From the IMG/VR virus record IMGVR_UViG_3300000553_000046, positions 1 through 57,326 of that record: a DNA stretch of 57,326 nucleotides; one strand, written 5' to 3'. This document shows, one piece after another, positions 840-19,063 of the stretch. This stretch comes from a virus. Both the position numbers and the translations under genes were made by a program. Every line of letters starts with the position of its first letter. The first letter of the stretch is position 1. A model generated the notes under the pieces. It ran no database searches. It was not told the origin of the DNA and saw nothing but the letters and a program-made list of their open reading frames with translations.

Positions 840-3800
840 TTATTTTATATTTTGACTAGATACTGTTACATTAAAATCTTTAGCAAACTCACTATCTATC
901 ATAGACATATAAGTAATGAATTGTTTTGATATTGGAAATATTTCTAATCCATATTTAAGAGGTTGAGCTTTTCTCAACACTTTATCTTTGTCTGTAAAAG
1001 GATGAGCTATATCTGTACCTGTCATAGTCAATATAGAATTCTGCATGAATTTACCAATATCTCCAAATATACCTAATGCTGGAAAAATACCACCACTCAA
1101 TACCTTACTCCATTCTCTAGGATCATAAAACATACCTAATTGATCATGAAACTTATTTAAAGTTTTATGGAAGAATGCCATTGAGTTTTTTCCTGCCTTA
1201 TCTTTTGGATCTCCAGGAGCAATAAATCCCATTGAAAATACTGCACCAGTTAAAAGAAGAAGGGCTCCTAGTTCTCGTACCTCATTGTGAAGATTATTCT
1301 TGATCATCTCAAAAAAATCATTTCTTGACATATTAAAATTTTGTCCTGTTCTATTTTCATAGTCTTTGGCATATTCTTCAAACATCTCATCAAGAGCTTT
1401 TATACCAGTTTCATTCATAGATATAATATTATGAATTCGCATAGCTCCTTTAAAGATATTAAACCCCATAGTATGCATAAATAATCGAATCCTTCCTATA
1501 TCATATCTTTCACCTATAGTATGGCCTTCATCATCAACTATTGTAGAGAATTCATCATTAACTCTCTCCATCGAATCAAATCTTGTCTTAATGAGTTTTG
1601 GCATCCAAGTTTTAAATACCATCATAGAATTTAACCAAATGTTCATTGCTGATTGGTTAGCGTCTGAAGCTGTTCTTCCGTGAGTAGAAGTTTCTGATAT
1701 TCTTCTTGTAAGCTTGGTAAGTCTATCAGCTTCGGTAGTGTTAGACATATCTAGTCCAGGAATTACAAGTTTACCATTCTCTATTTTCTTTATAGCATCT
1801 ATAGATCTTGTTTTTTGTAGTTCTTTTATTTCATCTTCTATTTTATTTTTAGAATCTCTATAGTTTTGTGAAGAATTAAATCTATCTCCATGTTTTGATT
1901 TTACATATTCTCTGATATTAACAATCTTACCGTTCTCAATCATTGAATTCTGAAGAAGAGATAAGAATATACTTTGCTCAACATGTTCGGAGGGAAATGA
2001 CATAACCATCATTAATTTATGTTTTATATCAAGATTAGTCATTGCACTCATTCCTGCTGTACGAAGTTTATCATCTATAATATTTTCTCGTAATGGCATG
2101 AAGTGTTCAATAAGTTGACTCCACATTTCTCTTTCTGGTCCAATAAATTTATTACGAAATACTGTAGCATTATTTTTTCTAAATTCTCCTGCTGTAAAAT
2201 ATCTTCCTGCCTGAGACATAACTTGCATAGATGATCCAAAATATACAGCAGCTCCTGATACAATATTACCTCCCAAGGTTTTTACTCTAAAGAATTGATT
2301 TAAAGCATCGATGGTTTTTGTAAGAGAGATAGGATTAGGATTTTCATCTACTTTATATACCTCATGTCCAGCTACAAAATTTATAACCTTTTTCATAGCC
2401 TCCTGAGGATGAATATCGATTGCTAAATCTGTATCTGAGTCTACATATTTTTCTCCATATAACATTGTTCTTACAAACTTATCAAGCACTTTGGAATTAT
2501 ACTCATTTCCTTTAGAAACAAGAGCTCTTCCTTGTGCATCTTTCTTAGGAGTACCAAAAGCATTTACTTCAATGTGATCTTTTAGTTCTTCAACATCCTG
2601 AAGAATTTTAATTTGATTTTCCAGATTAGTAAGTTCTCTATATTTTTCTACATGAGAGAAATATAAAATAAGATTCTTAAACATATCTTCGCTTGCCTCT
2701 TCTCCAGATCTTGTAAAGTCATATGTAAAATATTTAGGAATACTATGTTCATATCTACCATTCAATTCATTAATCTTACCAAATCCTGTATCATTAGGGT
2801 TTACTCTAAGACTATTCTCCCAATTCATCATCTCTAAAGGATTTTCTCGCCATGCAATTTTCTCAGCAAAACCTTTCCTTAAGAATGGAAGAAATGTATT
2901 CATGAGTTTATTTTCAATATAGCCTATAGATGCAGCTTCGTGATTAACCTCATAAATGAGATTATATAATTCTGCTAAAGATTTGTTACTCTGAATATCT
3001 TTATACTCTTTAGATAACCATTTATCTAATGGATTTCTTTTAATCAAATAGTTATTCCATCCATTAAAATCTGGTCTTTCAATATCCCATTTCTGATTAA
3101 GTTCAGTAATTAAAGCAGTCCCTGTTTTAGTATCGTGTTCATAATCATTTTTATATTTAAGAGTACCTTTATCAATTATTTTCTGAGCTGCTTCTTTATA
3201 TGTAGATAAATCAATATTATCTTTTATCCATTGTTTATCTGGAATTTCTCGTTTAGCATTCTCATCAACTGCATCATAGAATTTTCTATCATACTTATAG
3301 AACAGTTTATTCATATTATTTCCTTTATCATCCTTCTGATAAAGTTTTGATACTTGATCTCTAAGATTACCTAATGTAGAAAGTTCTTTTTTAATAGTTA
3401 ATAGAGAATTAACTCTTCCTAAAGCATTTCTATTAGCAACAATACTTGCATCAGTTATAAGTTTATTCAATAGTTGTAGAGATGCGTTTGGAAGCATTGA
3501 TATATTATAGAATGTTGCTTTAAGTCCTTTCATTATTTTCTCAGAAGTAAGCATGTTGGGAATATTATTTGCCCATCCCATAAACTTATTAACAAATTCT
3601 TTAGAGATACTATCTATTTCCTTTCTTGAATCTGCTATTGTTTCTACTTCTGAACGTAAATCTTCTGCAATTTTCTTTCTATTTTCCCAATCTGCTTTTT
3701 GTTCTGGCGTATTAGCCTTCTCTACTTCATTCTTATTATAAATTATCTTCCTTAGAAGAGATTCTACTTCTTCGAAAGCTAATGCTACATCTCTATAATC

Positions 3801-5690
3801 ATGTAACTGTCCTGCAAATTCGGATTTTTCAGAATTATCGATTCCTCGCATATCTCTATCTTTCCATACAGTTTTCCAAATATTAAGAAGATCATCTCCT
3901 TCTCTTCTAATTGTAGAAATTACATCAATTAAAGGAGCTAAGTTTTGTTGAGTCTGAGCATATCTAAGAGCCTCTGTAAGTTTATTTATTCTCTCATTCT
4001 TAAACTGTCTACTATCCTCATCTGTAACCTTTTGTGATTTAATAGTAGAAAGCATACCTTGTAATATACTAATTGCCTTATCAAGTTTCTCAATATTAGT
4101 AGTCTCGCTTTTTTCAGATACAGGAAGAAGTCTTAAATCTTCTATTTTATTTACATCTGCAGAGCCTACACTAATTCCAGTAACTGCATACTTTTTTGTT
4201 TTATCATTCTGTTTCATTTGCATAATTACAGGAATTGCTCTAATCATACCTATGTTCTGAATTCCATAAAAATCCTTAAGAATGTTCTTATATCTTCCTA
4301 ATTGAATATCATAAGCGTTTTTTTTATACCACGGAACATCTTTAGCATCATGCTTGACAGTCATAAATTTCCAATCAAGAATATGAGCTTTACCACTACC
4401 ATCTATTGCAAGAAAGTCAATAGTACCAGCTTCTTTTGCTTTTGGATCATATACTTTTATCTCAGAGAAGATTAGTGGAATATTATCATTTTCATCTTTT
4501 AGTACATTAATAAGATCAGAGAAATAGTTCTCTAATCTGTTATAAATCTCATCATGTTCTTTAGGAATATCTGGTCTATCTCCAATCACATCTCTTTTTG
4601 TACCATCTTGATTAAATATTCTTCCATGAATTTCTTCCATATAAGAATGGAATAACACACCAGCACTTCTTCGTGCTTCATTGTATATTTTTTCTGCTTC
4701 TGTAAAATTTTTATCTTTAAAGAATTGAGAATAGGCATTCTTTACTCTATCTGTTACTCTGTGTTTTACTCTTTCCCATCCTTCAGGGGTAAGAATTTCA
4801 TACCAGTTATTAGATTCATCATCTAAAAGTTGATCATCAGTTTTATTGGAGGATATCTTTCTCAATTTTGATTGAGTATCCATCAGTGCTTCTGAAGAGA
4901 ACTTTTGTTTATCAGTAATCTGTTGATGATATATTTCATCAGATTTAATATTATTAATATTTCCTTCTACTTTTCCTTCAGATATTAACTTAGAGACTTG
5001 TTGAAATATATCGATATTGGCTTTCTTATACATTCCTCTAATGGTATCCATTATCTTATCCCACCAAACTCTGATAATACTTCTATTAGCTTCTTCTCTT
5101 AATTCGGGAAACTCTGTATCACCTTCGTTATTATTAACTATAAGTTCTGTAATAAGTTTGTCAACCGCTTCTTTCTTTATCTTTCTAATATTAGGTTTAC
5201 CATTATCTAATTGATAGGCTTTATTATTCTTATAAGCTTTTAGTGTACGAGCATATATACCAAATCTATCAATCTTAGCAATCATCTCTGTAATAAGAGT
5301 GGGATTAGTTTGCTCCAGGATAGCTGTAGCAACGTGAACTATTTCTTCTGTAAGAGCAACGTTCTCTTTACCTTCTACAATAGCCACTATTCCTTTGATA
5401 AGGTCAGCAAGACCATTAATTCCTTTAGCATCAACATTAGGATTACCTTTAAGATAGTCTGATAAAGCTTGAATCTTTATTCCCATCTTTTCAGCAACAT
5501 TCTTAATCTTACTGACTGTCTCAAAAGAAGATTTAGAACTAACTATATCTTTAGATTGAACTAATTCAGACTTTGGAACTTCTCCTTCATATTTATCCCA
5601 TAGATAATATGCTATATTTTCACCTCTAAGATCTACTAGATCTTGCCATTCTTTTAAACTTTTATTAGGACAAGTTGCCATAATTAACAA
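840..5690 (-). CDS. Giant internal virion protein with PD-(D/E)XK nuclease domain (1616 aa)
   Basis: A 1616-aa protein downstream of the giant polymerase gene, which it overlaps by 7 bp. Around residues 350-470 it carries the motifs of a RecB/Cas4-type PD-(D/E)XK nuclease: a His-containing helix (GVLFHSYMEE), Glu410 (SEIKVYD), Asp425 (GTIDFL), Asp439-Trp-Lys441 (ILDWKF), then Gln463-xxx-Tyr467 (QLGRYKNIL). All metal-binding positions look intact. The rest is mostly charged helical sequence that I do not recognise; a hydrophobic stretch (LLLLTGAVFSMGFI) lies near the C-terminus. Position among the giant genes suggests packaging in the capsid and ejection with the DNA. The nuclease could act on host or competing DNA or on phage DNA processing; the sequence does not decide. 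A TEEIVH motif near residue 115 recalls metallopeptidase sites but is not enough for an assignment. Confidence 0.75.
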   Translation of the reverse strand: MLIMATCPNKSLKEWQDLVDLRGENIAYYLWDKYEGEVPKSELVQSKDIVSSKSSFETVSKIKNVAEKMGIKIQALSDYLKGNPNVDAKGINGLADLIKGIVAIVEGKENVALTEEIVHVATAILEQTNPTLITEMIAKIDRFGIYARTLKAYKNNKAYQLDNGKPNIRKIKKEAVDKLITELIVNNNEGDTEFPELREEANRSIIRVWWDKIMDTIRGMYKKANIDIFQQVSKLISEGKVEGNINNIKSDEIYHQQITDKQKFSSEALMDTQSKLRKISSNKTDDQLLDDESNNWYEILTPEGWERVKHRVTDRVKNAYSQFFKDKNFTEAEKIYNEARRSAGVLFHSYMEEIHGRIFNQDGTKRDVIGDRPDIPKEHDEIYNRLENYFSDLINVLKDENDNIPLIFSEIKVYDPKAKEAGTIDFLAIDGSGKAHILDWKFMTVKHDAKDVPWYKKNAYDIQLGRYKNILKDFYGIQNIGMIRAIPVIMQMKQNDKTKKYAVTGISVGSADVNKIEDLRLLPVSEKSETTNIEKLDKAISILQGMLSTIKSQKVTDEDSRQFKNERINKLTEALRYAQTQQNLAPLIDVISTIRREGDDLLNIWKTVWKDRDMRGIDNSEKSEFAGQLHDYRDVALAFEEVESLLRKIIYNKNEVEKANTPEQKADWENRKKIAEDLRSEVETIADSRKEIDSISKEFVNKFMGWANNIPNMLTSEKIMKGLKATFYNISMLPNASLQLLNKLITDASIVANRNALGRVNSLLTIKKELSTLGNLRDQVSKLYQKDDKGNNMNKLFYKYDRKFYDAVDENAKREIPDKQWIKDNIDLSTYKEAAQKIIDKGTLKYKNDYEHDTKTGTALITELNQKWDIERPDFNGWNNYLIKRNPLDKWLSKEYKDIQSNKSLAELYNLIYEVNHEAASIGYIENKLMNTFLPFLRKGFAEKIAWRENPLEMMNWENSLRVNPNDTGFGKINELNGRYEHSIPKYFTYDFTRSGEEASEDMFKNLILYFSHVEKYRELTNLENQIKILQDVEELKDHIEVNAFGTPKKDAQGRALVSKGNEYNSKVLDKFVRTMLYGEKYVDSDTDLAIDIHPQEAMKKVINFVAGHEVYKVDENPNPISLTKTIDALNQFFRVKTLGGNIVSGAAVYFGSSMQVMSQAGRYFTAGEFRKNNATVFRNKFIGPEREMWSQLIEHFMPLRENIIDDKLRTAGMSAMTNLDIKHKLMMVMSFPSEHVEQSIFLSLLQNSMIENGKIVNIREYVKSKHGDRFNSSQNYRDSKNKIEDEIKELQKTRSIDAIKKIENGKLVIPGLDMSNTTEADRLTKLTRRISETSTHGRTASDANQSAMNIWLNSMMVFKTWMPKLIKTRFDSMERVNDEFSTIVDDEGHTIGERYDIGRIRLFMHTMGFNIFKGAMRIHNIISMNETGIKALDEMFEEYAKDYENRTGQNFNMSRNDFFEMIKNNLHNEVRELGALLLLTGAVFSMGFIAPGDPKDKAGKNSMAFFHKTLNKFHDQLGMFYDPREWSKVLSGGIFPALGIFGDIGKFMQNSILTMTGTDIAHPFTDKDKVLRKAQPLKYGLEIFPISKQFITYMSMIDSEFAKDFNVTVSSQNIK

Positions 5691-8600
5691 ATTAATTTTA
5701 GAATTCTTCCTATTTCATCAGGACTAAATCCAAGAGTTGTTAGTTTGTTTGAATCAGTCATTTCATCTCTTATCTTCATTAATGCTTTAGGAAAATTAGA
5801 TTCCCAGAAAGAATCATTTCCTCCAATATGAGTCAATTTAGACTTACCTGTATTTAATAGTTCTTTAAGAGCTTCATTATTTTGTTCAAAAGAAGTTCTT
5901 AATAAATTCTCCATTAATGAAAGACTAATGTTTCTATTTACATTTTTTGGAGGATTTATCCTCTTACCAACAAAATCACCAGGACGTTTGAATGTAGCTT
6001 CATCAAACTTACCACTCTTTAATGTCTGATATGCATGTTCTACAGATGCATATTTTCTTCCTTCAAACGTAAATGGTCGTTTAGCAAAATTACTTAAATT
6101 AATATTATCTCCTTTACCATGGTAGATATTGATTGGTTGTAACTCTTCTATAGTATTTTCTGTTCTTTGAGAATAATCTTCTAATAACTCACCTGGTTTT
6201 AGTATGTCATACATTGGAGCATTAGTTGAAATTTCTTTATCAGAAAGAACATCTTTTTCTTTTTTGATGTCATTAATCATGTCAAGAATTACTTGATCTT
6301 CTACTTCAGCTGTAATAATCTGACCATTGACTATCTTCTGTACTTTATCAATACCGTTGTCAAGAGCAGAAGGTCTTCCAATAGTTGATTCTTCATCTTC
6401 AGGAATCAGTTTATCATAGGACTCATTGGCATGTGTACCATCTCCCCAAGTATTTATTGCTTTGTACAATTGTTTTTCATATTCTCTACCTTTACTATCT
6501 GTAGTGGTGTAAATATAAGGAATTCTATTACCATTCTCATCTTCAGTATATACTCTTTTCATTAAAACTTTATGAGCATAAGAATAATCTCCTGCCTTTC
6601 TTCTTTTAGCAAGTTCTTTGGAACCTAAACTTTGCTGATAAGAATAAAGAATAAAATCAGAATCTCCATATTGTGATTGAGTGTTTCTTTCAATCAGTTT
6701 AGGAAGTTTTCCTGATTTGATTGCATTTTTTATTTTCTTATCTAAGAAATCCTCATCAAGTTTTAAAATCTTTTTACCACCATAGAGATAATCATCAATC
6801 AGTTTTGTACTAGCTTTTACTACTGGAACTATCTTATTATCATTATAATTAATTCTTTGAAAAGCATTGACTGCATTAAAGTTTGACAAGTCTCTATCAT
6901 CTAGTGTAGATATAGCTTCATTGTACATTAGTTTAAAATCTTCATAAGGAAGTAAAGAAGTAAATGATATAGGAGAGACTGTAAGTCCAGATTGTGCTAC
7001 AGCAACATGTAATAACTTTCTATATAGTTTCTGTTCCTCAGGAGTACCATCTATTAATTCATTCTTCAACTCTTCGAATCCATGAATAATTAAATTTTGA
7101 TTATAAGACTTACCATCTCTTCCTTGAATATAAAGATTATTTACAGCTCCCTTTCTTGTTCCAGATTGTAGTTTAATTGAGTTGATTATAGTATTTTTAT
7201 ATAAAGGATGCTCTGGATGTTCTAGCACATAATCTCTATAAGCTATTACATCATCCACTGCACTTTTTACATCGTCTTTTCCTACAAGAAACTGATAAAT
7301 GGATGTGTTGAATTTTGGACTTCCAGCATTCTGCATAACCCAATCAATCAGACCATTTACAGCTTTATGAGAAATTCTTAGGAAAGTCTTACTATCTAAA
7401 TGAAAATAAGGATATAGAATTTCATATATTGTATTTCTGGAATTCATCTTATCTGTTGTCAACACTTCTGCAAAAGCATCACGTATATCATTGAGATGAT
7501 TTTTAACATCACCAGAGAAAGAGTCTTTTAATAAATCTTCCACTGAAGATATTATTGTATTCTTTGCTCTTGTATACTGCCATTGTTTCTGATCTATTAA
7601 CATAGGATCGTTGAATCTGGCTGTATCATAATTACTTCCTTGAGTTACATAAAAAGAATGTTCAGCTATCTTAGCATATTTCAGAAATTCATCTAACATA
7701 AATTGTTGTTGAGCTCTCTGAGTATTATTCATCGTAGATGATTTCTCTCCAATTTTATTATGTTCTAACATGGTAAATAGATCTGTCTCCGATGGAATCT
7801 CTGTAATAACTCCTTTATATTCACTAGTAGGTGAGTATATATCCTTAATATCAGAATATAATCTTTTATCAAACAACCATTTCTTTCCTTTAGCTTCTAA
7901 ATTACGTAAGAAGTCATTGATTATAGGTTGATTCATAAAGTAAGCTACATTCTCAATTGGCACTCCAAGATCGATTAAAAGAAGCCAGGTACTTAATGTA
8001 TTAGGTCTGATACCCAATCCAGTTATCCAGTTATCAGCTGTAACGTCTACAGAACCATCAATAATCTGAGAGTTAATATCTGATATATAATGTTCTTCTT
8101 TAGCATCTTTTAATAATGAGAATACAGCTCTCATTTTTCCATCAATCTCAGTCTTATTGTAGTCCTTAAATCTAATTTGTCCATCTCCAATCCAATCTCT
8201 ATCTTTCTTACTAATTTCTCTATCTGGATCTATGTATGTAAGTACACGTTGTCTTTGAGCATGACCTTTTTGATTTACAGCAGCAATTGCGATAAGTTGT
8301 CTACCTACAACAAAAGCATGTCTTAACTTATTCATAAAAGATCTCTTGAGCATATTTCCTAAAGATGAATAATCAGTTTTTATCTGACCTGTCTTAGTGA
8401 CAATATCTTCACTAATCTTCTTTAAAAGTGCTGCTGAGTTAGGAGAAATCATTCGATCAAAATTTAAAGAGTGTGATACAAGTTTCTGAAGAGAATCAAT
8501 ATATTCATTCTCTAAAGATTCTTTATACATCTTATCCAAAAACTCTTCTCTTGCTATATCTTGTAGATCTTTATCTGTTAATTTGTCTAATTTTTTATTA

Positions 8601-11600
8601 TACTTTTCGATCCTTTCTATGAAGATTTGCTCAATATCTCTTACTGATAGTTTTCCATCGATTTGTTCGTCTTCAAACCAACTTTTAAATATAGGTGTCA
8701 TTCTCTTAGCAAGTTTGTCACTTGTAAGTCCTAAGGCAATATCAGAAAATAATGAAGATAATTCAGATTGTGTTATAATTTTATTATTAAGAAGTTGTTC
8801 TTTCTCAGAAAGTTGTTCATTGAATAGATCAATAAACTTTAATCTTGCTTCTGGTTCTGTTCCAAAGAATGGTACAATATGAACACCAGTACTATTAGTG
8901 AATACATTCTTTAGATAGACAGAAAGTTTATCAATATCAAAGTCAGATCCTACTTTCTTAACAATAGCTGAAGGAACAATTACTTGATCTTTCATTTCCT
9001 TTGGAAGAAAGAAACCTATCTCAAAAGCATCAATTGAGTTCTTATTCTGTGTAGGTATGCGAAATGCTACACCATTTAAGATTTTCTTTCCTTCATCTGT
9101 GTTATTCAAATATTTTAGAAGTTCTTCATCAGATAAATCACTATCAAACCATTTAGGAATTGCAATTTGACATACTCTTTCTCCATTAGCATTCTTGTAG
9201 AACTTAAGAACATCTGATGTATATACATCTTTACCATTCACTTTCTTAATAGATATTCTTTTAGATTCGAGAAGAGTAGACGGTGCTTGTACGACCTGTT
9301 TACCTGATATTTTAGTACGAACTACCTGTTTATCAGCTATTGAATATATAATACTTCTCAATTGACTATATAAAGGAGTAGCTTCAAGAAGTGTAGTTCC
9401 ATTCTTAAAATCATTAAAACTCTTAATGATGTTATCATTAATATTATATTTAAACACCTCAGTTTTAAGTGTGTTTAATAGTTTATTAATATCATCGATT
9501 ACATATCCATATGCTACTTTAACTATACCAAGTTTTTTAAATAAAGTCTGAACTCCATGTTCTTGTTTAGCTTTAAGAATAGTTCTATTGCGTTCCATTT
9601 CCTGGAATAACTTAGATACTGTTAATTTCTCATCATAAGATAAATTTTTCCATTCATTGAATTTTGTTCTTTCATCAGTAGGAATAAAATCTAACGGAGC
9701 ACCTCCTTGAATAAGATCCATCATTACAATAGCCCTCATTTGAGAACCTTCTGTAGTACTGGCTTTATCTTTAGAAGGAACATCCATAGATACACCAAAT
9801 ATTGAAAATGGAACTTTAATAATACCTTGTGGACTATCAGGATCTAATCTCTCAGTTTCAGTATCATAAGGAGTCTGATTTAATTTTTCACCATCGTATA
9901 ATTTATGTACGATTTCAGCTCCTTCTTTTCTTCCTGTTAAGAATATAGCATAGTCTATGTTCTCTCTTTCCATCTTATTATACAGTTCAATAGCGTTTGA
10001 ACTAGCATTCATTTGATGTAGTAGTCTAAACGAATGTACGAACTGAGCAGTCTTGTCTACTACTATACTGTTATAAGATCTATTAGAATCTTTATTTCCT
10101 GAAGCACTTGGTTTTCTTGGTGTATATGTTGAAGCAACATCAGGATTAGACTTTTCAAGTTCAGTAGTAGCTTCCTTAATTTCTTCATCACTCTTGCCAT
10201 TCTTCATCATAGACTGTACTAATTTCTGATATGCTATATCATGTCGATACTGTTTCTCATTATCGTCAGTCCAGTTATTAGTTCTTATTCCGAATATCTT
10301 ATTGGCTTTTAACGTGGTAATAGTAGCTCCATCAGTCTCTTTCCAGGATCTATCATATTTAGGAAGATCATTCTCACTAAGTACATCTTCATATATAACT
10401 GTATTAAAGAATTCTTTATCCATATCAATCCATCCAATATCTCCCTTCTCAAATCCTTCATTATAAATCTTATCTAAGACTTTATTAATCTTATCTGAGT
10501 TATAGAGAAGTTCTTGTTTTGGAGAACCAAACAGTTTAGTTCTTTTTAACTCCATTTGATATTGATAGGGATCTCCATATATAAGTTTGTGAAGTTCAAT
10601 ATTAGCAATGGCAAAATTTAATGACATTCTATATATTTCATCTTCAATATCTTCTAATGTTTTACCCTCAATTGGAACATTTTCCAGAGAATATCTTCCT
10701 TCGATATCATGCTTTAAAATATCATACTGACGTAATATTTCCATCATATTGTCTCTCTCTTGTTTAAAGAAAGACTCTAAAGAAGAGTTGATAGCCTCAA
10801 CATGATCATCATAGATTTCTTCAGGAGAACGTTCATCTCCCATAACTTTATCGTATGTATCTTTATCCAGGATATCTTTAAAGAATCTTAGACTGTTATT
10901 ATCTCTTCCTTCTGCGACAATTCGTTCAGTCTCTCTACTCATATTCACTTCAGCTAGAAAGTATAGTTTAAAGATATCAAACTGTTGATTTAAGTTGATA
11001 TTATCAGCTGTGACAAAAGGATTATCTTTATCATGTAGTTGCATTGCTGCTTCTAATGCTGCATCTCCTGGTACAAGATTAGAATATATACCATTTAGAT
11101 TTAGATTTAGTTCTTGAATAAATCTTTGTTTAGAAGAAACTTTTGATACTGGTGTATCCTTTCCTGAAAGTCTGTTAGATATACCATTGACAATAACAGG
11201 ATGCATTACATTATCTGTTCCAGAGTTTTTATCATTTGTTCTAAGATTAAACATTCTTCTTAATACTTCACTACTTCCTTTTACAAAAGAGTCTGTTAGA
11301 AGATATCTGAAGTTTCTAAATTTTGTATTGGTTAATTCATTCAAACTTTTAATGTTAGAAAGCACGTTATACAATCTACTGAATACATTAGGATTCATAT
11401 AACTCTGAACTTTATCTCCAGAGAGATTGTAATAGGTACTCTCCAACTCTGGATGATCAAATATAGCCTGAATATCAGCTAATTCTTTAAGCCTACCATC
11501 CATGTCTCCTAAAGTCTTAGCACTAAGTACTTTTATATTATCAACATTTTTAAAACTATCTCTTATACCAGTTACTATAGTTTTAAAACTATCGAGTAAC

Positions 11601-14600
11601 TCTCCTTTGAGTTGTGGTTCATATTTTTTAAAATCAATACCTATATTCTTTAAAAAGTTAATATAACTATCAACGTTATTAGAGAATTGATGTTCAAATA
11701 TTTTATCAGAAGATTTATAAGTTCCATCTTTACTATTATAAGTAAAATAGTCAAGTCCTTTTTTAATCTTATCTACAATATTATTAAACATTTCTCGTTT
11801 AATAACTTCACTTACTCCCTTTATCATTGTATTGCTTACAATAGATTCTCCCGTAGGAAGTATAAATACTGTAACAGCATAAGGACTCTGTTTTTTATAA
11901 GATTTCCAAAACTCAGAAATAATCTGAAGTTTAGCTTTATCAACATTAGAAAAATCTACAGATCCTTCCTGATAAGACATTCCCATAATACGACTATATA
12001 ACGTCTTATAATTAATATCTTTATTTAATCCGTACTCTCCTAGTTTTATAAACATATCATCGGGATCTGTGGCATCAGATAATGTATTTAATAGTTGAAT
12101 GTTTACCTGATCTGCTGGTAAACAAATAACACCACCTACAGTAGATCTGACAGTCTTTCCAGTACTAGGATTAAGTATAGGGATTGTACCTAACATTAAT
12201 TTGACTGAAGAGTTCATATTTTTGAATGAATCAATCTTGTTTGATTCCAGATAATCTGTTTTCTCCACATTGTCTTCATCCTCATTCAGCACCGCAATTT
12301 CATTCTCATCGAATGATATGTTTTTTTCTTTTAGATATTCAATATGAGTCTGTACAATATTTCTCCAATCATTAACAACATTGTGATATAGATCAACCAT
12401 ATCATTGATTTTTCTATCTCCCTCTTCTTTTGTAATCTTTCCTTCTTCTTTATTTACTTCATGTAAGTGTCTCATCCACTGAACTCTTTTCAAGAGATCG
12501 TCTTTCAACATATTATAAAGATCATTCTTAGAAATATTATCAATATTAAATATAGATTCACCATTTCTTATAAGACTAGTAATAGTCATATAGTTCAGAT
12601 GTTGAATAATATCGTTCATCTGATTTCCAGGAATTTCATTTTTGTCTCTGAATTCAGAATCATTATATGGATCTGTATGATCTATATCTATAATGCCAAC
12701 ATTTGCATAGGATAGATTAGTTTCATAAGGAATATACTCTTTGTAATATCCATTACCAATCTTATCAAACAGCTTCTGTGTATTATTTATAGCATCTTTT
12801 CCTATAAAAAACGTCTTAATAAAATTGACAAGATCATGAAACATCTGTCCTATCCTAGATCTCTTAATATTTCTTTCAGGAGTTTTTCCATCCAACATAT
12901 AATCAACAAACTCTTCAGCTATTTCTTCTTTAATCTGTTGATCTGTAGCTGTCTTAGGATCTATCTGTTCTCCTGTAAATCTATCTGTATATTTAGGATG
13001 ACTATTTCTAAACTCATTAAGGATTGCCACTTTTTCCTCAGGAGTAGCAAACATCTTCCAGACTCCTTCGAATACCTCATGATAACCTGTTCCTATTCCA
13101 GCATTCTCATAAATATATATAGCTCCTCTCTGAAGCATTCCCCATGCTTGTTTACCATTAGTACGCTGAATGATATTCTTTAAACGATATGTAGGAAGAT
13201 TTGGAAAATTAGTTTTTAGGAAGTTCTCAAAATCAGTCCAGTTCTCAGGAGAGAATCTTCTGGCTGACTTTGCTAATGTTTCTCTGAATGCATCATCCTC
13301 TGGAGCAAAGTCTGGAATCTTGAGAGCAGGATCTGATGAATCGTATGTTTTTTCTTCTGTAGGTATAGTTATTGCTGGAGATTCAACTGTTGATTCCTGT
13401 TGGATATTAGGAATGAATTTACTAAGAATAGATTTAAACAATATATCCTGAACATCATTAATATCTATATGCTTATCCTTACTAAAAGCATCCGCAACAT
13501 CTATTGGTATAATAGGATTATATACTTTATCTTTAATTAAATTATCTAACAAAGTTTTAAACTGCACTGGATCTTTTAAATTTAATCCTTTAGCTAATTC
13601 TCTAGCTTTATCTAAATTTAACGAAAAAAAGGCATCACCGTATGTAGAGATGGGAAGTGTCTCAGTTGTACCATCTAGTTTAAATTTAGAAGAAGGAGTT
13701 TCAGCATCAACCTTCTTATCAAAAGCAAGAGGTTTATTATCATTCTTAAGTGGAGTAACTATTTTCTTTAGAGTAATCTCATCTGGTTTTATAGTGGCAT
13801 GAATAGCACTATCTGCATCATCTGATACAGAGATATAAAAATCTTTCCTATTAATATCTCCCTCGTCTCTTATTGCTTTAAAAGGAGTAGTTAAAGGAAT
13901 ATCTCCTCTGGAAGCTCCATCTTCTTTATCTGTTTGATTACTGGAAACAAATTTATTAGATAGAAGATACGTTTGATAGTTTTGCCAGGTTCTTACTTGA
14001 AGTTTTCCATCTACATCAACTTTCACTATCTCATTATATTGAGTACGAGAAGTAGAGTTTGTTAACTTAGCATCAATATTGTGATATATATTTTGTAGAG
14101 CCTTAATAATAGCGTTCTTACTATCAACTAATCCATCAGGAGTAAATAAATAACTTTCCTTACCTATAAATAGTGTAGGAATAAGTTCATCTTTATCGTT
14201 CTGTATATTTTTAAAATATACATTAGATTTATTAAACTTTTGATTTCTAGAATCATCTTTAATAATCCCCCAATATACAATAGATTTTAACCAGTTAAAT
14301 TTTGTTTTTAACACTGAATCTTTTGCATCACTCTCAAGATCTTTTGTCAATTGATGCAATACATCAAATATTGTATTAGCTTCTTTACTGTTAAGTAATC
14401 TACTAAAGACTTTAACAATACCTAATCCAGGAATTCTTAATAATGTAAAACCTTTAGGAACTTTCATAGATACAGTGCCCTCGTGTTTATCTTCACTAAG
14501 AGTAACTACTTCTAATAAGTTATCACTTATTAATTGTTCAGATGTAATAAGTTGTGCATCTTCTACTGAGGTACGTGTATTATAGTTAATTATAGGTTTA

Positions 14601-17600
14601 CTATTATTATCTTTTTTAATTTCTTCATTTTCATCAATTTCATATTCATATATAGGGCTTCCAAAAGACATATAGAAATTCTTTGGACTTTGAAGAGTAT
14701 TACTGGCTAATACTTCATCTCTTTGTTTAATATATTGTGTCTCAAGATTTTTAATTATAGCAGGATCAGTAGTTTCTCTAAACATTGTATCTAGCTTGCC
14801 ATTATAGTTAGCTGTTAAATGACCATCTTTATCAGGTTGAGGCATTGCCTGACATAATACATTATTCAAAGGATCTGAGGTTATTTCTTTTCCTTTCTGA
14901 TCAACTAATTTACCATCAGAGTTTACAATTACTCTGATTACCATACGATCCCATTTATAATGATCAGTTTCTGTTTTTAGAAGATGTTTCATTAATCCTT
15001 TAAGACCAAGTTGTTCTTCTGTATTCAGAGTGATATCGATTGTCTTAAAGTTTTTTCTTTCTTCAGGACTCATCTTACCCCACTTAATACCAAAGTTATC
15101 TGTTCTTATCTGATGTGGAGGTCTATCAGGATTAGGCTTAGTACCATTAACGACATTAAAATCATCCTTCTTATTTGGAGATTCGTAAGGAGGTCTATCG
15201 TGATCAGGAACTTCTTGATCACTATATGATTCATTAATCTTTCTAGCTTGACTTGCTACTTTCTTTTCCTGAATTTTTTGTTGTTTATACTTCTCAGCTA
15301 ATGTTTTAAATCTATCTAATATCTTGTTTTGAGCAACAAGATGTGCAGATTCCTCATCATACCATTCCTGTAATTTACTAATTCTATCTTTAACATCTGC
15401 TAAATCAGAGTCACTAATACTGGTATACTTTTCCTTACCTTCTAGACTCTCAATGAATGAATTGTCTATAATAAAATCCTTAGCTTCCTGAAAATGTGTA
15501 AAGTCTTGATTTGCAATTTCATTAAACCATTCTTTAACAGCATCTGTATATCCAAATGTATCATCTGGTAAGGTTTTCTGTAATACAGAGACCAACTTAG
15601 TTATCAGACCTTGTATTCCTTTAGATATGTTATTAAGTTCATCAATACTCTTTTGGATCTGTATCTGTAGTTCAGTTGTCAGGTTTATTTCATTTTCAAT
15701 TTCTTTCATGAACTCGTTACCATCCTCAGAATAACTATCGATATTATCCTTCATCTCCTGGATGTAAGCTAGTTCCGTATCTAGTGTATCTGATTGAGTT
15801 GTTAGAGTTTTGATTTCGTTTTCAATAGTAGTTTTAAGAGTATTTAGTTTTTTAATACTGGTAACTCCTAAAGCAGTTAATTGTTGCTTGCTAATTTTAC
15901 TACTAACTAATGTAGTAGCTATATTATTTAAAGTCTGTTTATGACTATCAATTGTTTTCTTAATCTCTGTTTGATGAGATGCAACTTCATTATAGAGGTC
16001 GTTAATAATTTTCAATCGATTAACTCGTCTACTTGCCTGATCCAGTTTAGTTTTACCAGATGTATTTCTTTTAGCAATATCCTCAACATCTTCTTTACTC
16101 TGAGTACGATTTAATGAAAATACTCCTTCTTTAAATTTAGAAGAATTGAAATGAAACTGATCAAGACCAATCTCTTTACTTACTGATTTACCGTTCCTAT
16201 CAGAATAGACAAAAGTTAATTTATCTGTTCTATAATCATATTGTATTTTCCCAGGAATCTTATTGTCTTCATAGAAGTTATCTTTATTATTTTTCTTTCC
16301 AATATTCCAATAGACAACTGTATCAGGATGTTGTACAATATTCCTAAAATAGAATCTAGAGTTCTCACTTTTATTGATATCAGAAACCTTTCCCAGTTTG
16401 TATTTCTCTAATTCATCTTCCTTTATATCTCTAATAGAGTCATTGGAATCTTTGATTTTAACAGTGCCTTCTGTATCACCTTTGCCTAATATTGTTAATT
16501 TAGGAAATCCTAATGAGCCATCTTCCTGTTCAATATGACCTAAATAATATTCTTCACCAACCTCTATATCTCTTGGACCATTAAGTGTATTTACTTTAAT
16601 AATTTCTTTCTTAGGAGGATTTTCTCTTAGTTCTTTTTCGAGAGCATTGTTTTTAATAGTCTCTACAAGTTTATCCTTTACTTCATTCCAGGTATCTTGT
16701 ACAGCATCTTTATTTGTATGAAGAAGATATGCAGTGGCACTCTTCTCAATATCATCTTTGAGAAGTTTATTTTGACTTTCTATTTTTGTAGCTTTCTCTG
16801 CAGATGCAGGATCGGTTCCAAGAGTAGTTAATTCCATCTGATTTCTTTCTAGTGCTGTCTTTGCCCAGACAGTCTTAGCAGCATCATTATAGGATTGAAC
16901 TTTCAAATCTTCCTTAAACTGATTATAAACTTGTGATTCAGTTTTGTTCTTAAGATCAACATTGTCAAGATTTAAAAATGTTCCATAACGTTGATCTACT
17001 GTATTATACACTTTATGTAAAGCATCGACCATAGAAAGAGATCTTCCTAATATTGCATCTGGAGTTTGTTCAATACCATTGAGAGTATCATTTTCTCTGT
17101 TTACTTCCTTCTTTGCTTTCTCAGATTCAAATTTTAGTAGTTTTTGAAAAGTTTCTTTACCTTGAGCATCCTGAAAGAATGTGTATGCTAAATTTTGAAA
17201 TGACTCATTTTTAATATCTTCAATTACCTTATTAGCAGCATTAACTTTATCAATATCATCTGTACTATTAATAACTCCATATGCATCCAATATCTTTGCA
17301 TGATTGATTAGTGTACCAGCAAACGCAGAACCAAGTTGAGCTAACTTATTTTGATCGAATGTAGCTTTTCCATCTGCAATAACTACTTTTCCTTTTCCAT
17401 CTTTTTGAAGCATATCACCCATGCTATAGTAGAACTTTCTATTTGCTATAGTCTGATTCAAATCTTTTAAAAAAGATTTATTTGCTTTATCCTGATTAGA
17501 AACTTCTTGCTTTATTATACTTTTTCCTACACCAAATAAGGAAGTGATAATGCCTTGAATAGTTCCCAGAGCTAAGTTATTCTGACCATTAGGATCAGAA

Positions 17601-19063
17601 TAGTTTTTAATAAATTCTTTCCAAAGATTAGCACCACTAAGATCTCCATATTCAACATGTTTATTTCCCTGATCATCTTCCACAATCTTTCCAGATTTAG
17701 CTTCTTCAACCATTCTACCAATAGCTACCTGAAGACTTTCAGAATGACCATGTTCAAACCCTGTACCTACTACCTTTGCAGTGTTATATAGAAAACCTTT
17801 TCCTGTAGTATTTGCAGTTGTAAGAGCTCCTTCTGATAGTTTAGCAATTCCTTCTTCCCCTATTTCTTCTGTGAGAATTTTGCTAAGAGCTTTATTTACA
17901 GCTTTTGTAGAAGCATATATTTGTGGAACCTCAATTAGTGATGTAATTAATGCAAATGGAGAATTTAGAATAAATGCATCCTTACCTCCTTCTACAGCTT
18001 TGTCATTTATTTCATCATCAGAAAGAGTATTTAATCCATCTGCTCGTTGTTCTATTAATGCTTTTTTAATAGCTACTTGAGACTCTCTCGCATTTAATGC
18101 GTTTTGAGCAGTAGCATTGATTGTTGTAAGTTCACCAAATTGAGTCATGTGTACAATACTCTTAAACTTATCAGCATTTGTTCCAAGACTACCCACAGCA
18201 TATTTAACTCCTGTACCAGACATTTCTGCAGCAACGGTTCCTTCTTCAATAACTTTTTCAGTTAATATCTTACCTAATTTAGAATAATCATTTCCACTAT
18301 TGGCAATAGATTGAATAAGTTTAGAACCTATGCCTGTAGCTTCCACACTACCTCCTTTCATCATTGTACCAAATAAACCTAATCCTTTAGCTTCCAGAAA
18401 ACCAGGAGCAATTGTGGCTACCGTAAGAGCAAGACGATCTATCGCATCATCTAACCACCAATCAGTAGTTCCTAACTTATCCCAAATATTTCCCTTAGTA
18501 TATTTATCTGATTTATATATAGGAGAACGTTCTTGAACATTTTCTTTCCATACATCAGCTAACTGATCCACAAAATTATCTGTCATTAATGAGAAAGCAT
18601 GACCATCATTAATAACTTTACCATCTCCTCCAACTGCTTCATTCGCTATATTAATTGCACCTCCACCCAATGCCGCAACAGCTCCACCAAGAAATCCAGC
18701 AGTTTGTAATGTATAACTTAATGTTTTTTCTACAAGATTATCTGTAGCATTCTTAGTTCTCTCCCAACCAGTCTGTCCCCATCTGGCAGCATCTTCCATA
18801 TTTATACCAGGAACATAACTCTTATATCTTTTGTTTGCATCTAGTTCTTCTCCTGAAATAACATCTGCATGATTTTCCCACGTAGAGTCAGCACTTGCTT
18901 GACTAAATATATTTAAATCAGAATCCTTATCAGTATTAGTAGGAGTATATGGAGTAGGAGCTTTAATATTACTACTCTGTGTATTCTCTGTCAATGCTGG
19001 ATCTACTGGTGATAAGTTTGTATTACTTATCATGGGAACATTAAGTCCATTAAAATCTGGCAT
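5684..19063 (-). CDS. Giant virion polyprotein: zincin-like site, virion RNA polymerase, C-terminal NADAR domain (4459 aa)
   Basis: One uninterrupted frame of 4459 codons. Residues 1-700 contain hydrophobic, Gly/Ala-rich segments (AGFLGGAVAALGG near 120) that could contact a membrane. Residues about 1000-1270 are predicted coiled coil. At 1995-1999 is a zincin-like site, YHEVFEGVW (HExxE rather than HExxH), followed near 2045 by an EEIAEEFVDYM helix that could supply a further ligand. Residues roughly 2400-3900 correspond to the crAss-phage single-chain RNA polymerase: the catalytic metal motif is Asp3374-Phe-Asp3376-Ile-Asp3378 (GSDFDIDKLS), with an upstream KISGKQVVQ segment suggesting the other double-psi barrel. 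Residues about 4310-4459 form a NADAR/YbiA-like domain: LSNF at 4323-4326, VEHAYQ with Glu4342, and a final W-x-x-N-x-x-K-A-L-M-x-I-R. The known phi14:2 polymerase is about half this length. Likely role: ejected with the DNA to transcribe early genes. The NADAR fusion suggests reversal of ADP-ribosylation. Confidence 0.85.
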   Translation of the reverse strand: MPDFNGLNVPMISNTNLSPVDPALTENTQSSNIKAPTPYTPTNTDKDSDLNIFSQASADSTWENHADVISGEELDANKRYKSYVPGINMEDAARWGQTGWERTKNATDNLVEKTLSYTLQTAGFLGGAVAALGGGAINIANEAVGGDGKVINDGHAFSLMTDNFVDQLADVWKENVQERSPIYKSDKYTKGNIWDKLGTTDWWLDDAIDRLALTVATIAPGFLEAKGLGLFGTMMKGGSVEATGIGSKLIQSIANSGNDYSKLGKILTEKVIEEGTVAAEMSGTGVKYAVGSLGTNADKFKSIVHMTQFGELTTINATAQNALNARESQVAIKKALIEQRADGLNTLSDDEINDKAVEGGKDAFILNSPFALITSLIEVPQIYASTKAVNKALSKILTEEIGEEGIAKLSEGALTTANTTGKGFLYNTAKVVGTGFEHGHSESLQVAIGRMVEEAKSGKIVEDDQGNKHVEYGDLSGANLWKEFIKNYSDPNGQNNLALGTIQGIITSLFGVGKSIIKQEVSNQDKANKSFLKDLNQTIANRKFYYSMGDMLQKDGKGKVVIADGKATFDQNKLAQLGSAFAGTLINHAKILDAYGVINSTDDIDKVNAANKVIEDIKNESFQNLAYTFFQDAQGKETFQKLLKFESEKAKKEVNRENDTLNGIEQTPDAILGRSLSMVDALHKVYNTVDQRYGTFLNLDNVDLKNKTESQVYNQFKEDLKVQSYNDAAKTVWAKTALERNQMELTTLGTDPASAEKATKIESQNKLLKDDIEKSATAYLLHTNKDAVQDTWNEVKDKLVETIKNNALEKELRENPPKKEIIKVNTLNGPRDIEVGEEYYLGHIEQEDGSLGFPKLTILGKGDTEGTVKIKDSNDSIRDIKEDELEKYKLGKVSDINKSENSRFYFRNIVQHPDTVVYWNIGKKNNKDNFYEDNKIPGKIQYDYRTDKLTFVYSDRNGKSVSKEIGLDQFHFNSSKFKEGVFSLNRTQSKEDVEDIAKRNTSGKTKLDQASRRVNRLKIINDLYNEVASHQTEIKKTIDSHKQTLNNIATTLVSSKISKQQLTALGVTSIKKLNTLKTTIENEIKTLTTQSDTLDTELAYIQEMKDNIDSYSEDGNEFMKEIENEINLTTELQIQIQKSIDELNNISKGIQGLITKLVSVLQKTLPDDTFGYTDAVKEWFNEIANQDFTHFQEAKDFIIDNSFIESLEGKEKYTSISDSDLADVKDRISKLQEWYDEESAHLVAQNKILDRFKTLAEKYKQQKIQEKKVASQARKINESYSDQEVPDHDRPPYESPNKKDDFNVVNGTKPNPDRPPHQIRTDNFGIKWGKMSPEERKNFKTIDITLNTEEQLGLKGLMKHLLKTETDHYKWDRMVIRVIVNSDGKLVDQKGKEITSDPLNNVLCQAMPQPDKDGHLTANYNGKLDTMFRETTDPAIIKNLETQYIKQRDEVLASNTLQSPKNFYMSFGSPIYEYEIDENEEIKKDNNSKPIINYNTRTSVEDAQLITSEQLISDNLLEVVTLSEDKHEGTVSMKVPKGFTLLRIPGLGIVKVFSRLLNSKEANTIFDVLHQLTKDLESDAKDSVLKTKFNWLKSIVYWGIIKDDSRNQKFNKSNVYFKNIQNDKDELIPTLFIGKESYLFTPDGLVDSKNAIIKALQNIYHNIDAKLTNSTSRTQYNEIVKVDVDGKLQVRTWQNYQTYLLSNKFVSSNQTDKEDGASRGDIPLTTPFKAIRDEGDINRKDFYISVSDDADSAIHATIKPDEITLKKIVTPLKNDNKPLAFDKKVDAETPSSKFKLDGTTETLPISTYGDAFFSLNLDKARELAKGLNLKDPVQFKTLLDNLIKDKVYNPIIPIDVADAFSKDKHIDINDVQDILFKSILSKFIPNIQQESTVESPAITIPTEEKTYDSSDPALKIPDFAPEDDAFRETLAKSARRFSPENWTDFENFLKTNFPNLPTYRLKNIIQRTNGKQAWGMLQRGAIYIYENAGIGTGYHEVFEGVWKMFATPEEKVAILNEFRNSHPKYTDRFTGEQIDPKTATDQQIKEEIAEEFVDYMLDGKTPERNIKRSRIGQMFHDLVNFIKTFFIGKDAINNTQKLFDKIGNGYYKEYIPYETNLSYANVGIIDIDHTDPYNDSEFRDKNEIPGNQMNDIIQHLNYMTITSLIRNGESIFNIDNISKNDLYNMLKDDLLKRVQWMRHLHEVNKEEGKITKEEGDRKINDMVDLYHNVVNDWRNIVQTHIEYLKEKNISFDENEIAVLNEDEDNVEKTDYLESNKIDSFKNMNSSVKLMLGTIPILNPSTGKTVRSTVGGVICLPADQVNIQLLNTLSDATDPDDMFIKLGEYGLNKDINYKTLYSRIMGMSYQEGSVDFSNVDKAKLQIISEFWKSYKKQSPYAVTVFILPTGESIVSNTMIKGVSEVIKREMFNNIVDKIKKGLDYFTYNSKDGTYKSSDKIFEHQFSNNVDSYINFLKNIGIDFKKYEPQLKGELLDSFKTIVTGIRDSFKNVDNIKVLSAKTLGDMDGRLKELADIQAIFDHPELESTYYNLSGDKVQSYMNPNVFSRLYNVLSNIKSLNELTNTKFRNFRYLLTDSFVKGSSEVLRRMFNLRTNDKNSGTDNVMHPVIVNGISNRLSGKDTPVSKVSSKQRFIQELNLNLNGIYSNLVPGDAALEAAMQLHDKDNPFVTADNINLNQQFDIFKLYFLAEVNMSRETERIVAEGRDNNSLRFFKDILDKDTYDKVMGDERSPEEIYDDHVEAINSSLESFFKQERDNMMEILRQYDILKHDIEGRYSLENVPIEGKTLEDIEDEIYRMSLNFAIANIELHKLIYGDPYQYQMELKRTKLFGSPKQELLYNSDKINKVLDKIYNEGFEKGDIGWIDMDKEFFNTVIYEDVLSENDLPKYDRSWKETDGATITTLKANKIFGIRTNNWTDDNEKQYRHDIAYQKLVQSMMKNGKSDEEIKEATTELEKSNPDVASTYTPRKPSASGNKDSNRSYNSIVVDKTAQFVHSFRLLHQMNASSNAIELYNKMERENIDYAIFLTGRKEGAEIVHKLYDGEKLNQTPYDTETERLDPDSPQGIIKVPFSIFGVSMDVPSKDKASTTEGSQMRAIVMMDLIQGGAPLDFIPTDERTKFNEWKNLSYDEKLTVSKLFQEMERNRTILKAKQEHGVQTLFKKLGIVKVAYGYVIDDINKLLNTLKTEVFKYNINDNIIKSFNDFKNGTTLLEATPLYSQLRSIIYSIADKQVVRTKISGKQVVQAPSTLLESKRISIKKVNGKDVYTSDVLKFYKNANGERVCQIAIPKWFDSDLSDEELLKYLNNTDEGKKILNGVAFRIPTQNKNSIDAFEIGFFLPKEMKDQVIVPSAIVKKVGSDFDIDKLSVYLKNVFTNSTGVHIVPFFGTEPEARLKFIDLFNEQLSEKEQLLNNKIITQSELSSLFSDIALGLTSDKLAKRMTPIFKSWFEDEQIDGKLSVRDIEQIFIERIEKYNKKLDKLTDKDLQDIAREEFLDKMYKESLENEYIDSLQKLVSHSLNFDRMISPNSAALLKKISEDIVTKTGQIKTDYSSLGNMLKRSFMNKLRHAFVVGRQLIAIAAVNQKGHAQRQRVLTYIDPDREISKKDRDWIGDGQIRFKDYNKTEIDGKMRAVFSLLKDAKEEHYISDINSQIIDGSVDVTADNWITGLGIRPNTLSTWLLLIDLGVPIENVAYFMNQPIINDFLRNLEAKGKKWLFDKRLYSDIKDIYSPTSEYKGVITEIPSETDLFTMLEHNKIGEKSSTMNNTQRAQQQFMLDEFLKYAKIAEHSFYVTQGSNYDTARFNDPMLIDQKQWQYTRAKNTIISSVEDLLKDSFSGDVKNHLNDIRDAFAEVLTTDKMNSRNTIYEILYPYFHLDSKTFLRISHKAVNGLIDWVMQNAGSPKFNTSIYQFLVGKDDVKSAVDDVIAYRDYVLEHPEHPLYKNTIINSIKLQSGTRKGAVNNLYIQGRDGKSYNQNLIIHGFEELKNELIDGTPEEQKLYRKLLHVAVAQSGLTVSPISFTSLLPYEDFKLMYNEAISTLDDRDLSNFNAVNAFQRINYNDNKIVPVVKASTKLIDDYLYGGKKILKLDEDFLDKKIKNAIKSGKLPKLIERNTQSQYGDSDFILYSYQQSLGSKELAKRRKAGDYSYAHKVLMKRVYTEDENGNRIPYIYTTTDSKGREYEKQLYKAINTWGDGTHANESYDKLIPEDEESTIGRPSALDNGIDKVQKIVNGQIITAEVEDQVILDMINDIKKEKDVLSDKEISTNAPMYDILKPGELLEDYSQRTENTIEELQPINIYHGKGDNINLSNFAKRPFTFEGRKYASVEHAYQTLKSGKFDEATFKRPGDFVGKRINPPKNVNRNISLSLMENLLRTSFEQNNEALKELLNTGKSKLTHIGGNDSFWESNFPKALMKIRDEMTDSNKLTTLGFSPDEIGRILKLIC

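Follow-up and report, generated by a model that had tools for sequence, protein, structure and literature searches.

A predicted NADAR domain on the virion-type RNA polymerase of a crassvirus and its recurrence in related viral genomes

The giant open reading frame and its genome

The whole stretch of DNA analysed here, referred to as the window, is an IMG/VR virus record of 57,326 bases. PHROG matches to the large terminase, the portal and the major head protein were found on its minus strand, where all features described below also lie. The presence of terminase, portal and major capsid protein genes together with the gene order identifies the window as a crassvirus genome (order Crassvirales). 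Deposited matches of the terminase come mostly from crassviruses, the nearest (40%) being that of Leptolyngbya phage Lbo-JY46 (PP438436.1). This phage was recorded on a cyanobacterium, and its cargo proteins possess the same terminal cysteines as those of the window.

The genome contains a giant ORF (5684..19063) of 4459 aa with no internal stop, composed of a part similar to gp67 of phage phi14:2, a crassvirus RNA polymerase similar to gp66, a NADAR domain and a tail ending in cysteine. Residues 88-663 (17075..18802) match phi14:2 gp67 (BLAST E 6.6e-12). Residues 3014-3386 are similar to the phi14:2 RNA polymerase gp66 (BLAST E 7.5e-11) and residues 3230-3733 to phi-crAss001 gp50 (BLAST E 7e-12); the polymerase core thus defined by BLAST extends over residues about 3014-3733 (7865..10024), and the end of the homology is not sharp. 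It carries the metal-binding motif DFDID at residues 3374-3378 (8930..8944), which is shared with phi14:2 gp66 and crAss001 gp50. Based on the matches to gp67, gp66 and gp50 and on the DFDID motif, the ORF is a gp67-gp66 fusion followed by the NADAR domain. The earlier note on this DNA had proposed a NADAR domain at the C-terminus of a virion RNA polymerase, and this arrangement is borne out by the polymerase homology and the SDFDIDK motif in the same frame.

The window shares position, order, catalytic motif and sequence with the known polymerase cargo of crassviruses (gp67-gp66-gp65 in phi14:2; gp47, gp50 and gp49 in phi-crAss001). It differs from this cargo in having the gp67 and gp66 parts in one ORF and in the additional NADAR domain, for which a query gave no match in phi14:2 or phi-crAss001. 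The next cargo ORF (840..5681) encodes 1613 aa and was assigned by synteny and by its N-terminus MATC, which holds its only cysteine. It occupies the position of phi14:2 gp65 and crAss001 gp49, and its sequence match is a short one to gp80 of cr130_1. A zincin-like motif HEVFE (residues 1995-1999, 13067..13081; HEVFEG 1995-2000), detected as a pattern match, sits between the gp67-like and polymerase parts and could denote a putative protease that cuts the polyprotein.

The NADAR domain and its active site

Sequence searches and a predicted structure both assign residues about 4305-4438 (5750..6151) of the giant ORF to the NADAR family. The landmarks lie where the earlier note had placed them, with LSNF at 4323-4326, VEHAYQ containing Glu4342 at 4341-4346, and KALMKIR at 4426-4432. 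Of the checks which that note proposed, the structure prediction recovered the NADAR fold, and the profile search gave a match below the threshold set by Pfam. Pfam NADAR (PF08719) matched the 338-aa C-terminus with E 5.3e-7 and 30.5 bits, below the curated cut-off of 35.1; the fused relative L029 scores 52 bits against the same profile. PHROG 1017 was matched with E 9.5e-12 and E. coli YbiA (2b3w), in a sequence search of the PDB, with E 3.1e-7, and a weak match to PF08010, the gp30.3 family, was also obtained. The AlphaFold2 model, built from 39 sequences, has a mean pLDDT of 84.9. Its three best Foldseek matches are three solved NADARs (2b3w, E 2.5e-6; 8bau, 1.4e-3; 8bat, 0.12), with the next match at E 4.4, and the TM-score to 2b3w is 0.58-0.60.

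Loss of the catalytic glutamate in alignment, which would have spoken against the assignment, was not seen. Glu4342 (6038..6040) and Lys4349 (6017..6019) are invariant in all 41 fused and all 17 stand-alone NADARs compared. They are seven residues apart, as are E43 and K50 in the ADP-ribose-bound structure of the Phytophthora nicotianae NADAR and E88 and K95 in the E. coli C7 enzyme, where K95 contacts a phosphate and is essential (PMC11543638). Thr4411, His4412 and Arg4432 are likewise invariant among the 41 fused domains, although their identity to the window domain is only about 25-46%. Trp4420 (5804..5806), equivalent to the ADP-ribose contact W133, is tryptophan in 34 of the 41. Another tryptophan of the ADP-ribose site, present in 33 of the 41, is replaced by Val4375 in the window, and this loss casts some doubt on the activity of the window domain.

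The catalytic position of the last strand, His4412 (5828..5830), is histidine in 41/41 fused NADARs and glutamate in 15/17 stand-alone phage NADARs of our survey. Histidine occupies it in phage gp30.3 NADARs, glutamate in YbiA and aspartate in the DarT1-linked proteins (PMC11125620), so that the window domain differs from the latter two. The domain resembles the YbiA/NADAR superfamily (PF08719, formerly DUF1768; 2b3w, 8bau) in fold and in its Glu and Lys residues, and departs from it through the fusion to a giant virion polymerase and the loss of one ADP-ribose-site tryptophan. T4 gp30.3 (PF08010) is also phage-borne with a last-strand histidine, whereas it is a stand-alone protein of 152 aa and so divergent that its placement in a tree is unsafe.

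Recurrence of the fusion and the site it occupies

No close relatives were found by a single-sequence IMG/VR scan with the last 1005 aa of the ORF. A profile-led scan returned 55 loci, and a second scan added more. A NADAR domain and a crassvirus polymerase occur in one ORF at 32 further viral loci, which hold 28 distinct NADARs. An assembly chimera is ruled out by the presence of the same fusion in many independent contigs. One of the 32 loci is cr130_1, whose gp79 in GenBank (5801 aa, with TAG translated as a sense codon) is laid out like the window ORF; cr126_1 and cr131_1 come in addition to the 32. The domain mostly follows the polymerase; it precedes it in L028, L031, L044, L047 and cr126_1, whose gp3, labelled 'DUF1768 domain-containing protein' in GenBank, carries it at the N-terminus of the polymerase. 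All these sites are at or near the joints between cargo modules. In cr131_1 the domain is found on the second half of a polymerase split by an insertion. The polymerase ORF breaks inside the catalytic SDFD motif in both cr131_1 (L014:20317-21112) and L044 (14600-14700), and no Rfam match to a known group I intron reached the gathering threshold at the cr131_1 insertion. After both breaks come endonuclease-like ORFs (MKTKFNKES...) that closely resemble each other, as though one and the same intron occupied this active-site position in the two phages.

In the phylogenetic tree, the window NADAR groups with those of L016-L021 (96/91); two of these, L018 and L019, are fused to a crassvirus polymerase. 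L017 (5415-10211) comes from another kind of phage, whose 1599-aa protein is a match to the N4-type virion RNA polymerase family (PHROG 2206, E 4e-11) and has as its C-terminal part a NADAR of the same subclade as that of the window. By our own reading of the motifs, this protein displays motif-like stretches of a single-subunit polymerase; if the reading holds, two virion polymerases that are unrelated to each other would each have become fused to NADAR. L032 has a polymerase core with 62% identity to that of the window but a NADAR from the other group of the tree, which suggests that the domain has been exchanged. As to a bacterial donor, a genome scan gave only eight weak matches, and in one, from a Bacteroidales contig, TGA interrupts the NADAR frame.

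We further compared the near relatives of the window polymerase, namely the best 80 of at least 541 confirmed, of which 75 have a complete 3' end. Homology to the window ends near residue 4240-4300 in nearly all of them and is followed by a short tail or an insert. Only 2 of the 75 complete relatives among these best 80 possess NADAR. Others have DUF7831 (L111 and L137, E 5e-38), a 2OG-Fe(II) oxygenase (L165, E 3e-14) or a SLOG domain of the cpYpsA type (L154, E 6e-9) in the same place, and NADAR thus behaves as an exchangeable accessory. The window ORF ends in LTTLGFSPDEIGRILKLIC (5687..5749), with Cys4459 as the last residue. This tail is of the type MLxxxGYxPEEIGxILKxIC, which a strict pattern detects in 26/75 relatives, with or without an inserted effector domain.

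Combinations of domains also occur. An SF1 helicase follows NADAR in L018, L019 and L029, the first two of which also have an AlkB-like oxygenase. SLOG (cpYpsA) or DUF7831 adjoins NADAR in cr130_1, L021, L048 and L188. DUF7831 was observed next to NADAR or in the polymerase slot in L111, L137, L021, L066, L185, L188, L189, cr130_1 and cr131_1. Its model is confident (pLDDT 92.7) and has its best TM-scores to viral macrodomains (0.48-0.52), yet none is significant by E-value, and an assignment as a macrodomain was not retained. The slot of L100 (12836-13606) gave a weak ART-PolyVal match (Pfam E 0.02), possibly an ADP-ribose writer in place of the eraser; no further relatives of this domain were found, and the assignment was likewise set aside.

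Cysteine makes up 0.05% of the residues in the polymerase proteins, yet one lies within the last six residues in 75/75. In 73/73 ORFs that follow the polymerase ORF, a cysteine is found within the first eight residues. The window conforms, a cysteine at position 4459 of the giant ORF facing one at position 4 of the following ORF (facing ends, 5670-5690). In phi14:2, the single cysteine of gp67 is its final residue, the two of gp66 (2180 residues) are at 3 and 2179, and the single one of gp65 is at 3. The facing-end cysteines were examined in the window, L093-L172, L011, L015 and L012. The simplest reading would be a chain of cargo proteins linked end to end by disulfides; a structural atlas mentions disulfides solely for other virion proteins. 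Since NADAR in the window is succeeded by a tail ending in cysteine, just like the polymerase in relatives without NADAR, the domain lies within the cargo chain.

We tentatively propose, with somewhat less than even confidence, that crassvirus virion polymerases have a dedicated slot at the joints of cargo modules, either immediately ahead of the tail that ends in Cys or between the gp67-like part and the polymerase, where NADAR, DUF7831, AlkB-like, SLOG, helicase and ART-like domains replace one another. The cargo would be tied end to end via the terminal cysteines, and effector and polymerase would be threaded into the host as one, before the DNA enters. Such a slot would allow further counter-defence domains to be listed by position alone.

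Probable delivery into the host and candidate roles

Crassviruses are the dominant members of the human gut virome, and their ways of dealing with host defences are poorly known. If an ADP-ribose eraser and other effectors ride on an early-ejected polymerase, counter-defence would begin before any phage gene is read, and the recurrence of the fusion makes this idea directly testable. In phi-crAss001, mass spectrometry detected gp47, gp49 and gp50 in virions, which these proteins are proposed to leave in a partly unfolded state (PMC10172136). For phi14:2, MS/MS underlies the annotation of gp65, gp66 and gp67 as virion proteins. From these homologues we infer that the protein of the window is packaged and ejected as well, with NADAR probably delivered along with the polymerase. 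As the relatives pack this RNA polymerase protein in the virion, the NADAR enzyme probably reaches the host interior before the phage DNA does.

The earlier note held that a virion-delivered counter-defence of this kind was not described, which goes too far: Iyer, Burroughs and Aravind (2022, PMC9503650) had already proposed virion-packaged phage NADARs deployed early, and predicted packaging particularly in myoviruses. In the same paper, phage NADARs are called typically stand-alone, and neither crassviruses nor virion RNA polymerases are mentioned. The giant ORF resembles the polyvalent proteins (Iyer 2017, PMC5512222) and the ADP-ribose enzymes predicted to be packaged in virions (Iyer et al. 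2022) in combining several domains, here a polymerase and a NADAR, on one polypeptide that would be injected. The 2017 paper does not name NADAR. In the literature searched, mostly that outside subscription journals and limited to the articles themselves, nothing relevant was found on NADAR or DUF1768 together with crassviruses. The recurrent fusion of NADAR to a virion RNA polymerase appears to be new to that literature.

The explanation we favour, and hold to be more likely than not as a whole, is that the domain represents a pre-loaded NADAR-family ADP-ribosyl hydrolase of the N-glycosidase type, which rides on the crassvirus virion polymerase as an accessory module of the cargo, probably for counter-defence. 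The capsid would hold the polyprotein, which would pass down the tail in a partly unfolded state, ahead of the DNA or along with it, and NADAR would refold in the host. There it would strip ADP-ribose from guanine in nucleic acid, or cleave a small ADP-ribose derivative, made in either case by a host defence enzyme, and removal would precede any phage gene expression. Catalytic activity, substrate and role are predictions, a counter-defence role being probable. The expected chemistry is the removal of ADP-ribose through its N-glycosidic bond, and the evidence fits either substrate. In favour of this explanation, a phage NADAR of the gp30.3 type acts on guanine-ADPr in vitro (PMC11125620); against it, the likely host class yielded no host system that ADP-ribosylates guanine.

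That the substrate is a small diffusible ADP-ribose derivative, such as a cyclic ADP-ribose variant produced by NAD-consuming immunity (e.g. Thoeris), and not nucleic acid, is a real possibility, clearly below even. The same was argued for phage NADAR, Macro and SLOG domains (PMC9503650), and it is consistent with the SLOG or DUF7831 neighbours of NADAR in the four viruses named above and with the macrodomain-like top scores of DUF7831, insignificant as these are by E-value. However, every NADAR tested in PMC11125620 hydrolyses guanine-ADPr, and the AlkB-like oxygenase and SF1 helicase that follow NADAR in two relatives point to nucleic acid.

These same two domains, sharing the slot in some relatives, would also suit a polymerase-coupled repair function. 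Here NADAR, physically joined to the RNA polymerase, would clean the phage's own template or transcripts in early transcription, removing ADP-ribosylated bases, NAD-derived RNA ends or marks left by a phage ART, with no tie to host defence. The weak ART-like domain in one slot (E 0.02) would fit as well. However, only 2 of 75 close polymerase relatives have NADAR, which argues that transcription does not need it, and we consider this function rather unlikely.

The earlier note had pointed to the toxin of DarTG1 as the target, an idea that the data do not bear out. DarT1-linked NADARs do remove ADP-ribose from guanine (PMC11543638), and the domain of the window belongs to the same superfamily as the antitoxin DarG1, with the same expected chemistry. 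DarTG blocks phages, and delivery before replication would be timely for clearing guanine in phage DNA. However, the window domain is of the His type and not the Asp type of DarT1-linked NADARs, and the annotated neighbours in the window are virion and cargo genes with no DarT partner. A gp30.3-type phage NADAR failed to rescue cells from DarT1, though active in vitro (PMC11125620). Bacteroidota are the known hosts of crassviruses. Among 295 Bacteroidia genomes, 21 possess DarT and 22 NADAR, and NADAR is absent from all 20 DarT genomes that were checked, so that DarT1-NADAR pairs look rare in likely hosts; this is an argument at the level of the class. A specific action against DarTG1 is therefore decidedly improbable.

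Least probable of all is a catalytically dead remnant that binds ADP-ribose or nucleic acid: the lost tryptophan and the Pfam score below the cut-off would agree with it, whereas the window keeps Glu4342, Lys4349, His4412, Trp4420 and Arg4432, all of them constant or almost constant across 41 divergent relatives.
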